A DNA stretch of 64,000 nucleotides from an uncultured Clostridia bacterium (GTDB taxonomy: Bacteria > Bacillota > Clostridia > Oscillospirales > Ruminococcaceae). Positions 44,830-51,070 of the stretch are shown here, in pieces (positions within the stretch are counted from its first letter, which is position 1; each line of letters starts with the position of its first letter). The stretch is taken from assembly GCA_947632025.1 (NCBI GenBank), contig CANRNN010000002.1, positions 1 through 64,000 on the forward strand, read 5' to 3'. The translations under genes were made by a program, and so were the position numbers. Under the pieces are notes generated by a model. It was not told the DNA's origin and searched no databases. It saw nothing but the letters and a program-made list of their open reading frames with translations.

Positions 44830-46041
44830 ATGGGAAATATAGACAAGCTAAAGTCGGTCGTGATAGGGATAGCCGCTGTATTATGTCCCGTGCTGGCGTG
44901 TTCGGGTTCGGCGGCAGGGGAGTTCATACGAAACGCGGCATTGTTGTCGGCGGGCTTTTCCGGGGAGAACAGCGCCGATATCCACACAAGCTCCGGAGAG
45001 AATACCTCAAGCGCCGAAAACACCTCCGGCACAAACACGGCGACAGGCACAGGTACAAGCACAAGCACAGGTGATGATATTCCCGACAAGACCGAAAGTT
45101 CCGACAGTTCCGAAATATCCGACAATCCCGATATTTCCGACCCAAGCGAGCCGACGCAAAAGCTCGGACGCATAATAACGAAAAACCGTTCCACTTTTGT
45201 AGACGATACCGACTTCTCAAAATTTACGACCCACAGCGGCAAGATACTCCGCTTTGCTTATTCCAAAGGAACGGGCGGCGGTTATGTCGACCTTGACAGC
45301 GGCGCACAGGTCAGAAACTGCACCACGGTGTCCGCGTCCGAGCTTCTGAACGCATCCCGCAGTCTGCCCGATATGGAAATTCCCGAAAAAACGGACGAGC
45401 CTTTGGTGCTTATTTATCACACCCACACCACCGAAAGTTTTCTCCCGCAGGCGGACTGGTACGATAATTCCTACCCCATAAACACCCGCGACCCCTCGCT
45501 CAGTATCGTGTCTGTCGGCGACGCTATATGCGAACGGCTCTCGCAGCGGGGGATATCGTCCGTTCACGACTGCGAGATACATAACTATCCCCAGCACACG
45601 GGAAGCTATTATAATTCCGCCGAAACCATCAGACGCGACCTTGAAGAATTTCCGTCCATACGGCTCGTCCTCGATATCCACCGCGACGGCATAATAAGCT
45701 CGGACGGCTCTCTGCCCGCGCCCGTGGTTTCAATAAACGGAAAGAACGCCGCGCAGTTTATGATAATCTCCGGCTGCGAAAACGAAACCTACCATATCCC
45801 GAATTATATCGAGAATTTCAAGCTCGCGGCACTCCTGCAAAATACCGCCGAACAGCGCTTTCCGAACCTCGCAAGAGCTTTGCTGTTCGACTATCGGAAT
45901 TATAATCAGGATATGTCTGCAGGAGCGCTGCTTATCGAGGTGGGCTCTCACGGAAATTCCCTCGACGAGGTAAAGTATACCGGACAGCTGCTCGGAGATA
46001 TCATAGCGGATTCCGTGGGAAAAATAAAAACCGCCCCTTGA
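44830..46041 (+). CDS. spoIIP: Stage II sporulation protein P
   Basis: 403 aa. Cell-wall amidase/endopeptidase of engulfment. The N-terminal region has a hydrophobic segment, then a long Ser/Thr/Asp-rich linker (residues about 45-115) and the SpoIIP domain: LVLIYHTHTTESFLP, NTRDPSLSIVSVGDAICERLSQRGI, HNYPQHTGSYYNSAETIRRDLEEFPSIRLVLDIHRDGI and GALLIEVGSHGNSLDEV, which hold the predicted zinc ligands His and Glu. The start at 44830 follows GAGGTGAAAAGT; a GTG at 44821 overlaps that ribosome binding site. Divergent from spo0A. Confidence 0.93.
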   Translation: MGNIDKLKSVVIGIAAVLCPVLACSGSAAGEFIRNAALLSAGFSGENSADIHTSSGENTSSAENTSGTNTATGTGTSTSTGDDIPDKTESSDSSEISDNPDISDPSEPTQKLGRIITKNRSTFVDDTDFSKFTTHSGKILRFAYSKGTGGGYVDLDSGAQVRNCTTVSASELLNASRSLPDMEIPEKTDEPLVLIYHTHTTESFLPQADWYDNSYPINTRDPSLSIVSVGDAICERLSQRGISSVHDCEIHNYPQHTGSYYNSAETIRRDLEEFPSIRLVLDIHRDGIISSDGSLPAPVVSINGKNAAQFMIISGCENETYHIPNYIENFKLAALLQNTAEQRFPNLARALLFDYRNYNQDMSAGALLIEVGSHGNSLDEVKYTGQLLGDIIADSVGKIKTAP

Positions 46042-46067
46042 CTTTTGCGCTGGAAATGTGGTATAAT
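46038..46067 (+). promoter_or_regulatory. Promoter of the rpn locus
   Basis: TTGACT (46038-46043), 18 bp, TATAAT (46062-46067), overlapping the last codons of spoIIP. Confidence 0.75.
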
Positions 46068-46094: not shown

Positions 46095-46958
46095 ATGACA
46101 GATCTTACGGCACAGCAGGAGTTTTTCGGGACGGATTATCATCAGAAAGTGCTGGAGCTTCTTAAAAAGCTCCGCCCGATAGACGATACTCTGATGCGTG
46201 AGCTTTTCCGTGACAGTCCGGAACTTACGGGATTCGTACTGGGAATAATCACAAGCATACCCGACCTTAAAGTGGAATCACAGGAAACACAGTTTGATAT
46301 GGAGCGGCTCGCGGGGGCGCGGTCGCTGAGAATGGACGTACTGGCGTCCGACAGTCTGGGCAGGAAATATAATATCGAGGTGCAGCGCAGCGACAGGGGC
46401 GCTGTTCCGAAACGCGCAAGGTATCATTCAAGCGCGCTTGATATCGAATTCCTGAAAGCGGGTCAGGATTTTAGCGAGCTGCCTATCACATACGTTATTT
46501 TCATTACGGAAAATGATGTTATAGGCGGCGGGCTTCCCGTGTATCATATCGACAGGACCATATCGGAAACGGGCGGCGCGTTCGACGACGGGGAGCATAT
46601 CATCTTCGTAAACGGAGCATATGACAACAGTGACGACAGCTCCGAGCTTGCGAAACTTATACACGATTTCAAGTGCAGCAGCGCGGACGATATGTACCTT
46701 GACCCGTTGTCCGAGCGTGTGCGCTGCTTCAAGGAAAAGGAGAAAGGAGTGAGCAATATGTGCAGAGCCGAAGAAGAACTTATGGAAGAGGTAAAAGAAC
46801 ACGCAGGTCGTATCAGAGCCTTTGAGTTTGCAGCAAAGCTCATTCAAAGAGGGAAGGATACACCAAGAGAAATATCCGATTTGACAGGTCTGTCTTTGGA
46901 AGAATTAGAGGCTCTTGCCGAAAAGGTAAAACTCGACAAGGAGCAGCAGTCTACTTGA
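46095..46958 (+). CDS. Rpn-family PD-(D/E)XK nuclease, full length
   Basis: 287 aa. Rpn/YhgA-like recombination-promoting nuclease fold: QQEFFGTDYHQKVLELLKKL at the start, the nuclease core RMDVLASDSLGRKYNIEVQRSD with Asp and the ExQ motif near residues 78 and 94, RARYHSSALDIEFLKAGQDFSELPITYVIFIT, and the family's IHDFKCSSADDMYLDPLSERVRCFKE. The last 66 residues are a small helical domain that can be made separately from an internal start at 46758. Good ribosome binding site ACAGGAGAGCGTAA. In E. coli, Rpn proteins are reported to be toxic anti-phage nucleases. Confidence 0.92.
   Translation: MTDLTAQQEFFGTDYHQKVLELLKKLRPIDDTLMRELFRDSPELTGFVLGIITSIPDLKVESQETQFDMERLAGARSLRMDVLASDSLGRKYNIEVQRSDRGAVPKRARYHSSALDIEFLKAGQDFSELPITYVIFITENDVIGGGLPVYHIDRTISETGGAFDDGEHIIFVNGAYDNSDDSSELAKLIHDFKCSSADDMYLDPLSERVRCFKEKEKGVSNMCRAEEELMEEVKEHAGRIRAFEFAAKLIQRGKDTPREISDLTGLSLEELEALAEKVKLDKEQQST
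46758..46958 (+). CDS. Predicted internal small protein of the rpn gene (Rpn short form)
   Basis: An in-frame ATG at codon 222 of the rpn gene is preceded by AGAAAGGAGTGAGCAAT, a strong ribosome binding site that the surrounding coding frame does not need. The product would be 66 aa: MCRAEEELMEEVKEHAGRIRA, then a variable segment, then a LEELEALAEKVKLDKEQQS end. In E. coli rpn genes, small C-terminal proteins from internal starts are reported to block the full-length nuclease. The same start context recurs before the stand-alone gene at 46993. Confidence 0.7.
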   Translation: MCRAEEELMEEVKEHAGRIRAFEFAAKLIQRGKDTPREISDLTGLSLEELEALAEKVKLDKEQQST

Positions 46959-46992
46959 TGCGAACCGTTCACGAAAGGAGTGAACAGGCAAT

Positions 46993-47199
46993 ATGTGCAG
47001 AGCCGAAGAAGAACTTATGGAAGAAGTAAAAGAACACGCAGGTCGCATCAGAGCCTTGCAGAATGCTTACAATTTATTGATTTTGGGTAAATTATCCAAT
47101 GAAGATATTGCCAGCGCCCTTGAGCTTCCCCTTGAGGAAGTCGAGGCTCTTGCCGAAAAGGTAAAACTCGACAAGGAGCAGCAGTCTGCCTCTATCTGA
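46993..47199 (+). CDS. Stand-alone Rpn short-form paralogue (68 aa)
   Basis: 68 aa. Its first 21 residues (MCRAEEELMEEVKEHAGRIRA) and its last part (EEVEALAEKVKLDKEQQS) are identical or nearly so to the rpn C-terminal domain. Residues 22-48 differ completely (LQNAYNLLILGKLSNEDIASALEL versus FEFAAKLIQRGKDTPREISDLTGL). The upstream ACGAAAGGAGTGAACAGGCAAT is a copy of the internal ribosome binding site. It lies 34 bp after rpn, in one transcript, with a terminator at 47264. Most likely an extra or alternative antitoxin-like small protein. Confidence 0.78.
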   Translation: MCRAEEELMEEVKEHAGRIRALQNAYNLLILGKLSNEDIASALELPLEEVEALAEKVKLDKEQQSASI

Positions 47200-47263
47200 C
47201 ACGGCGAATTTCGGAATCAATAGGTCAGAGCAGAGTAAAAAATTAAGTATCAGTCTATACCGA

Positions 47264-47290
47264 AAAGGCGGCATTAAGCCGCTTTTTTTG
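47264..47290 (+). terminator. Terminator of the rpn locus
   Basis: AAGGCGGC, loop ATTAA, GCCGCTTTTTTT; the stem has one bulged base, and the T-run is strong. Confidence 0.75.
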
Positions 47291-47373: not shown

Positions 47374-47402
47374 TTGACATTGGAAGTAAAAAGTCATATA
47401 AT
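47374..47402 (+). promoter_or_regulatory. Perfect-consensus promoter of the ser operon
   Basis: TTGACA (47374-47379), 17 bp, TATAAT (47397-47402). AGGAGGATAATTTA precedes serC at 47469. Confidence 0.92.
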
Positions 47403-50086: not shown

Positions 50087-51070
50087 TCAGGGTGTTGGTT
50101 TCTGCCCGTTTAGAGCCTGCTCGATCTGATCCTGCGAGAATCCCATCTTCCGGAGATTCGCGATTATTTCTTCGTCACGCTCGGCTCTGCCCTCAGCTCT
50201 GCCCTTGTCCATACCGATAGTTATTCCCTTGTCCATACCGATATTTATGCCCCTGTCGATGCCTATCAGTATGCCCTCGTCTATGCCCTCGGCAACGCCT
50301 TTTTTGTAGTGCGCGTACAGAGCGCTCTGCTCGTCGCGCAGGGCGTTTTCGCGCTTTCGGGCTTCCTCGCGGATCCTGTCGTCGGCACTAAGTTCGCGGA
50401 TAACCGTAACGGCTTTCTGTACATTGGGATTGTTCGATGATTCTTTCAGCATATCAAACTCCTCCTTCCTTCTGGCGTTGAAGAACGCCGCCCACGCTAC
50501 GCGGTCGTCCGATCTTATCTGTTCGGGCGTGATACCTCGGATCGGGATCTTCGGAAGCTCCACGAACATTATCCTCGCCTTGTCGCTTAAGGTGATATTA
50601 TTCTGCGGGTCGAAGAACACGAAATTCGTATTGAAGCTCTCGCAGTCGAACATCTTGAAATCGAGGATATTCAGCGACATAGTCTGCTTTGCTTCCCTGT
50701 ACTCCTCGCCGCGTGGCACGGACGACGTATAGAGCGACGCCCAGTAGTAAAGGCACCTGTCGTTATAGTCCAGAGTGTTCAGCACCTGAACTTCAACATC
50801 TATCTCGCTTTTTTCCGTTGAGATCCTAAGATCCAGTCTTGCGAATTTCCGCCTAAGCTCCTCAGGCGTTATTTCGGTATTTGAAAGCTCGAATTTTCCC
50901 TCGCCTTCGGTATCAATACCGAGATACGCGCTCACCAGATTTTTCAGCATATCGGAATTATTGATATCCCCGAACATTTTCTTGAACACTATATCAAGTT
51001 TCGGAGATATAAGCTCGTCGCTGTCCGTAAAGATCCCCCCCTTTCTTACTTTCTTACCTATATTATACAC
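50087..51070 (-). CDS. Rpn-family PD-(D/E)XK nuclease, second copy
   Basis: 327 aa as annotated, from a GTG at 51070. Family features: ELISPKLDIVFKKMFGDINNSDMLKNLVSAYL, the nuclease core ARLDLRISTEKSEIDVEVQVLN with Asp and ExQ, YYWASLYTSSVPRGEEY and KARIMFVELPKIP. The C-terminus has repeats of the type GI(D)RGINIGMDKG before RAERDEEIIANLRKMGFSQDQIEQAL, common in this family. The GTG lies inside the -35/-10 spacer of a consensus promoter (51062-51090), so the true start must be downstream; no ATG, GTG or TTG occurs there before the family core. A run of seven G follows. Confidence 0.85.
   Translation of the reverse strand: MYNIGKKVRKGGIFTDSDELISPKLDIVFKKMFGDINNSDMLKNLVSAYLGIDTEGEGKFELSNTEITPEELRRKFARLDLRISTEKSEIDVEVQVLNTLDYNDRCLYYWASLYTSSVPRGEEYREAKQTMSLNILDFKMFDCESFNTNFVFFDPQNNITLSDKARIMFVELPKIPIRGITPEQIRSDDRVAWAAFFNARRKEEFDMLKESSNNPNVQKAVTVIRELSADDRIREEARKRENALRDEQSALYAHYKKGVAEGIDEGILIGIDRGINIGMDKGITIGMDKGRAEGRAERDEEIIANLRKMGFSQDQIEQALNGQKPTP

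Follow-up and report, generated by a model that had tools for sequence, protein, structure and literature searches.

A putative Rpn toxin-antitoxin locus in an uncultured Ruminococcaceae bacterium, with one RpnS inside the toxin gene and a head-matched spare copy behind it

The rpn locus of an uncultured member of the Ruminococcaceae probably represents an Rpn toxin-antitoxin (anti-phage) unit that carries both a built-in and a spare, head-matched RpnS antitoxin, a reading in which we place moderate confidence. The C-terminal tail of rpn and the small gene behind it share nearly identical outer blocks around a diverged middle, the signal for an internal start is conserved among relatives, separate tail genes recur behind other rpn genes, and middle cassettes are exchanged between loci. 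In the proposed mechanism, RpnL would be a PD-(D/E)XK nuclease, the internal start would additionally yield its C-terminal domain alone as RpnS, and the 68-aa gene would be a second RpnS that arose by duplication of the tail and belongs to the same promoter-to-terminator unit as rpn. Recombination via the shared head and end would have replaced the HTH part of this second RpnS with a diverged one. The 68-aa protein would retain the first helix of the RpnL tail, which corresponds to the dimer interface of RpnA-S whose length sets pairing specificity, and therefore should still pair with its own RpnL. The likely outcome is two inhibitors with the same partner and different HTH surfaces, so that neutralization would survive if a phage factor altered one of them or if one were lost or titrated. 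For this organism we infer expression, binding, neutralization, and benefit; that either small protein could neutralize this RpnL is suggested by analogy with the work on E. coli (PMC10327210).

Organization of the rpn locus

The window, a 64,000-nt stretch of contig CANRNN010000002.1, contains the rpn unit between a SpoIIP-like gene and serC (Table 1). The candidate promoter matches 11 of 12 consensus positions, has an extended TG element, and overlaps the stop codon of the preceding SpoIIP-like gene; the stem of the terminator appeared in the scanner's own listing on the minus strand only. Since the unit has its own promoter and terminator, rpn and the small gene probably form one transcript. 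In two close relatives (L233 and L234), the SpoIIP-like gene and serC lie about 200 nt apart with no gene between them, and the unit was therefore gained or lost there.

Table 1. Positions of the predicted features of the rpn unit in the window.
Feature	Position	Strand	Remarks
Candidate sigma-70/A-type promoter of the rpn unit	46038-46067	+	TTGACT-18-TATAAT; consensus match only
rpn gene (full-length RpnL)	46095-46958	+	287 aa; predicted PD-(D/E)XK nuclease core and C-terminal RpnS domain
Internal Shine-Dalgarno (SD) AAAGGAG in rpn	46743-46749	+	8-nt spacer to ATG; SD conserved family-wide
Predicted built-in RpnS	46758-46958	+	66 aa; internal ATG is rpn codon 222
Built-in RpnS, head helix	46758-46820	+	
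Built-in RpnS, HTH-like middle	46821-46904	+	
Built-in RpnS, shared end	46905-46952	+	
SD AAAGGAG of the separate gene	46974-46980	+	SD duplex -7.9 kcal/mol; spacer of 12 nt, above the usual length
Separate (orphan) RpnS gene, predicted	46993-47199	+	68-aa ORF
Orphan RpnS, head	46993-47055	+	protein-identical
Orphan RpnS, middle	47056-47139	+	diverged
Orphan RpnS, end	47140-47187	+	nearly identical
Intrinsic terminator, 3' of the orphan	47262-47288	+	hairpin into T tract; -16 kcal/mol, z -3.8

The neighboring serC has a perfect promoter (TTGACA-17-TATAAT, 12 of 12 positions, 47374-47402), which is recognizable upstream of serC across most of the genus despite differing upstream genes. About 3 kb from the rpn unit, the minus strand of the window carries another PDDEXK_2 gene, from a different subfamily (50087-51070), with a four-residue repeat tail (GIDRGINIGMDKGITIGMDKGRAEG), and further full copies are present in the same genome on other contigs (C3, C16, and C30).

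The nuclease core and the fold of the small protein

The rpn core matches PF12784 (PDDEXK_2) with an E value of 7.6e-9 and 36.1 bits against a cut-off of 27.4; with TIGR01784 it scores 47.5 bits (E = 2.1e-12), just below the cut-off of 52.1. Residues D81, E95, and Q97 of RpnL are invariant throughout the aligned subfamily and correspond to the D...ExQ active-site pattern. They resemble D63, E82, and Q84 of E. coli RpnA, established as its active site by mutation (PMC5350276), an equivalence that is drawn from the motif, not from structure. RpnL is a predicted PD-(D/E)XK DNA endonuclease of the Rpn family.

DUF4351 (PF14261), the annotation carried by separate RpnS proteins in some species, was rejected for these tails: the built-in tail scored 13.9 bits against a cut-off of 25, and the separate 68-aa protein gave no DUF4351 match at E values up to 1. 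Pfam and NCBIfam named no family for the 68-aa protein. Its model is a predicted three-helix fold (pLDDT 87), similar to the three-helix HTH-like antitoxin domain of E. coli RpnA-S (PDB 7TH0), from which the window orphan differs in being a separately encoded gene. In superposition with 7TH0, 46 of its 46 residues were aligned at 1.5 A (Z 6.2, 26% identity), and a profile built from 43 tails matched 7TH0 by sequence (E = 0.0047). A Foldseek search with the small protein gave no PDB match at E < 0.001, the structural placement on 7TH0 being a second look. Since a Z of 6.2 is middling for a helical domain, the assignment to the RpnS fold is carried by sequence and context.

Mosaic structure of the two tails

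Aligned at the DNA level, the two C-terminal domains fall into three blocks. The head (codons 1-21) encodes identical residues, and 61 of its 63 nt are identical, both changes being synonymous; the end (codons 50-65) retains 46 of 48 nt, with 15 identical codons and one replacement. The sequence-only reading, which had described a stand-alone 68-aa gene with these matching ends and the same start context as the internal start, is confirmed. The middle (codons 22-49) is identical at 33 of 84 nt, compared with 26% for shuffled letters. Of the conserved residues, eight of nine in the middle have a different codon, against two of 36 in the two outer blocks (Fisher p = 1.8e-6); given this concentration of synonymous change, the segment boundary is real. 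A saturated middle between two flanks whose synonymous sites have hardly changed points to the exchange of a segment, not to ordinary divergence or protein-level selection.

The middle itself had been called wholly different, which proved too strong. The orphan matches the HTH-like tail profile with an E value of 3e-15, and since both middles fit that one profile, the orphan middle is a diverged homologue of the built-in HTH module. A donor for it was found neither in the bacterium's own genome nor in annotated phages, and a plasmid search returned only distant Rpn cores with an identity of about 30% at best. An assembly artefact was set aside as the source of the two-tail arrangement because unrelated genomes, and complete genomes of E. 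coli as well, show the pattern too.

Internal translation start

The sequence-only reading had also placed an ATG with a strong ribosome binding site inside rpn, predicting a 66-aa product, and both signals are present with an 8-nt spacer as listed in Table 1. Nearly every one of 115 distinct relatives has ATG-TGY as its internal codon pair, preceded by a purine-rich SD. SD pairing reaches -6 kcal/mol or lower at the internal ATG in 97% of 106 non-redundant relatives, compared with 4% of 526 other in-frame ATGs of the same rpn genes. The internal SD is stronger than the mean of synonymous-codon shuffles in 94% of the 106 genes (p = 3e-18; the relatives share ancestry, which inflates some p-values in these tests and makes them indicative), with mean pairing energies of -9.6 kcal/mol observed and -7.2 kcal/mol in the shuffles.

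It is very improbable, in our estimate, that the internal ATG is unused and that AAGGAG-ATG is conserved as a side effect of a conserved peptide motif (KEGVxxMC). Such a side effect would agree with the fairly conserved residues around the site and with the still moderately strong pairing of the shuffles. For the window rpn alone, 23.5% of synonymous shuffles reach the observed SD; this gene's own test is thus non-significant, and the support for the internal start is therefore the family pattern. The SD is nevertheless retained where the residues encoded at it vary among genes (KEG, EKG, PKG, PEG, and EGG), it exceeds the shuffle mean in nearly all of them, and RpnS production has been demonstrated by experiment, both in E. 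coli and with a gene of C. difficile (PMC10327210). Strong comparative evidence argues that the signal for an internal start, which would give the C-terminal domain, is conserved beyond what codon bias would be expected to produce.

Recurrence of separate tail genes

Our survey of orphan tails covered 175 distinct Rpn genes, 169 of which had at least 300 nt downstream. An intact downstream orphan follows 28 of the 169 genes (17%); three genes carry two, giving 31 orphans in total, all of them downstream on the same strand as rpn. Orphan tails were found in none of 168 upstream flanks, never in antisense, and after none of 351 control genes. The two-tail arrangement, recurring in 28 of 169 relatives and absent from these controls, exceeds chance. 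An SD precedes 20 of 29 orphan starts (p = 1e-11 against background ATGs, 11% of which have one). Most orphans lacking an SD start 5-28 nt past the rpn stop, where coupling is possible.

Several loci depart from the simple pair. Tail-only genes with no detectable core in the fetched neighborhood were seen at L186, L188, L189, L191, and L195, and locus L131 (G406:C32:28060-30064) has two full Rpn genes in tandem followed by an orphan tail. A scan of viral contigs (IMG/VR) for the Rpn core gave 16 contigs, two of which (L273 and L274) have a downstream orphan. These two are near-identical; in L274, the initiator Met of the orphan is replaced by Val and one residue is changed in the SD stretch, a possible loss of the orphan start.

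Decayed orphans were found at L023 and downstream of L044 and L045, and truncated second Rpn copies at L143 and L190. Broken-frame remnants and truncated copies of this kind would be left if slippage or repair copied the tail in tandem and the second copy then drifted without function. We consider such neutral duplication improbable as a general account, given the SD enrichment at orphan starts, the intact frames, the recurrence in 17% of genes, and the contrast between head and HTH, together with the intact state of the orphans in all E. coli strains compared that have two copies (see below).

Head retention and four-residue length steps

When built-in tails are paired with their own orphans, the heads are more similar than HTH identity predicts, as judged against random tail pairs (p = 3e-4). 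Clear cases of a kept head and a changed HTH are the window, L038 (second orphan), L052, L131, L135, and L136; the reverse pattern was seen at L149. At any single locus, head identity could reflect gene conversion or recent duplication, not selection for pairing.

The net difference in tail length is a multiple of four residues in 26 of 29 own-orphan pairs, being zero in 12, the window included, and a non-zero multiple in 14. These steps fit the four-residue repeats in helix 1 of E. coli Rpn proteins, where RpnS dimerizes through this helix and its repeats set pairing specificity (PMC10327210). Under the published repeat rule, the equal length of the window pair implies that the orphan should still pair with its own RpnL; in the 14 pairs with a non-zero difference, the published experiment with an added repeat implies that the orphan should not neutralize its neighbor. 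E. coli tail pairs also differ in length. The orphan protein of L214 is identical to the built-in tail save for eight extra residues (GLEQGLAQ) and constitutes a natural test of the published specificity rule.

Exchange of tail cassettes

Recombinant middles, sought in other genomes as the sequence-only reading had suggested, were found as HTH cassettes swapped on Rpn cores that are 97-99% identical. Between L096 and L113, identity is 0.99 in the core, 0.98 in the head, 0.55 in the HTH, and 0.82-0.88 in the 3' flank; the difference between these two built-in tails is a bounded swap of the HTH cassette. Within a Ruminococcus group, L139 carries as its first orphan the tail that is built into L044 (89.5% nucleotide identity, with cores at 86%), and the integral tail of L139 differs from this L044-type tail; another orphan of the group is decayed in L044 and L045 yet intact in L036. 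Codon mosaics were seen both in the window and at other loci. With these mosaics, the swaps, and the L044/L139 pair, the proposed duplication with segment replacement is well supported at the sequence level.

In E. coli K-12, rpnE and ypaA have near-identical heads at the DNA level and a diverged distal segment, and all six two-copy strains compared (K-12 included) have intact orphans with the same pattern. Four single-copy strains carry an rpnE in which its own head is joined to an orphan-type distal segment, and only 3099 of 5426 genomes cover at least 80% of the two-copy rpnE/ypaA junction. RefSeq lists ypaA (L262:2817-3002) as a pseudogene, or in other strains as an N-terminally incomplete fragment; it is an intact small ORF with an SD, and its protein has been reported (PMC10327210).

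Orphans may instead be former or future RpnL tails that need not act as antitoxins. Either recombination would insert a new tail directly behind the core and ahead of the old one, or a deletion between heads would bring an orphan in, and the nuclease would be re-specified from a reservoir of cassettes, resembling the orphan CdiA-CT/CdiI modules of contact-dependent inhibition. This explanation, to which we assign a rather low probability, would account for the tail that is integral in L044 and displaced in L139, the integral tails swapped on nearly identical cores, the hybrid single-copy rpnE, the limited coverage of the two-copy junction, and the decayed orphans. It sits less well with the intact reading frames and individual SDs of most orphans, with the production of RpnES from ypaA in E. 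coli (PMC10327210), and with the preferential keeping of the head. Displaced tails are compatible with much of the evidence for a unit with two antitoxins, and both may be true. As a broader proposal, held only tentatively, Rpn loci would run a general switching of tails, in which HTH-like RpnS cassettes pass from built-in to orphan positions and back by recombination via the conserved head, altering the part of the nuclease that senses phage or is released by it, with head-matched orphans protecting the cell meanwhile.

Comparison with known systems

The combination of a built-in and a downstream RpnS antitoxin is already known in outline, since built-in RpnS and downstream copies have been published for E. 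coli (PMC10327210). Zhong et al. (2023) established internal RpnS for five genes of E. coli and a cloned one of C. difficile, and called RpnL/RpnS the first antitoxin encoded within its own toxin gene (PMC10327210). In that article, RpnS neutralizes its cognate RpnL in E. coli, in agreement with what the sequence-only reading had stated; RpnP2 protects against phage; separate downstream RpnS genes accompany rpnE (ypaA) and rpnC; the tagged ypaA product (RpnES) was detected; and fusion of the core with a downstream rpnS is mentioned. The idea of duplication and segment replacement is accordingly less new than had been supposed.

The window resembles rpnE/ypaA and rpnC/RpnCS in that an Rpn gene containing an internal start stands ahead of a separate RpnS gene whose start context is the same (PMC10327210). 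It differs in that its Rpn belongs to another subfamily and phylum, in that its two copies are equal in head length whereas the rpnE and ypaA copies show four-residue repeat differences, and in that the shared block returns at the C-terminal end, so that the exchanged piece is internal. In the available text of PMC10327210, the downstream genes are regarded as copies, each clustering with its own RpnS, and HTH exchange is not described; among the open-access papers searched, no later literature on RpnS exchange was found.

New here are the conservation of the internal start in about 97% of 106 relatives, with a signal stronger than codon choice predicts; the frequency of downstream orphans in Bacillota and their systematic pattern of matched head and exchanged HTH; and the HTH swaps on 97-99% identical cores, with one tail that is built in in one genome and stands as an orphan in a second. 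An antitoxin located inside its own toxin gene forces both to change together. Separate RpnS copies that keep the pairing helix and carry another HTH would be a way round that constraint, and they lead to the prediction that the head decides partnership and the HTH something else, perhaps the trigger.

In the orphan CdiA-CT/CdiI and Rhs systems, a polymorphic C-terminal module is exchanged at a conserved junction, and displaced modules lie downstream. Going by general knowledge of those systems, Rpn tails may work alike. Membership in the CDI/Rhs systems was rejected: Rpn is a predicted intracellular nuclease with the antitoxin in its own reading frame and no secretion apparatus. If tails do shift from the built-in to the orphan position or back, recombination could re-specify a single Rpn core, as it does in other polymorphic systems of defense and competition.
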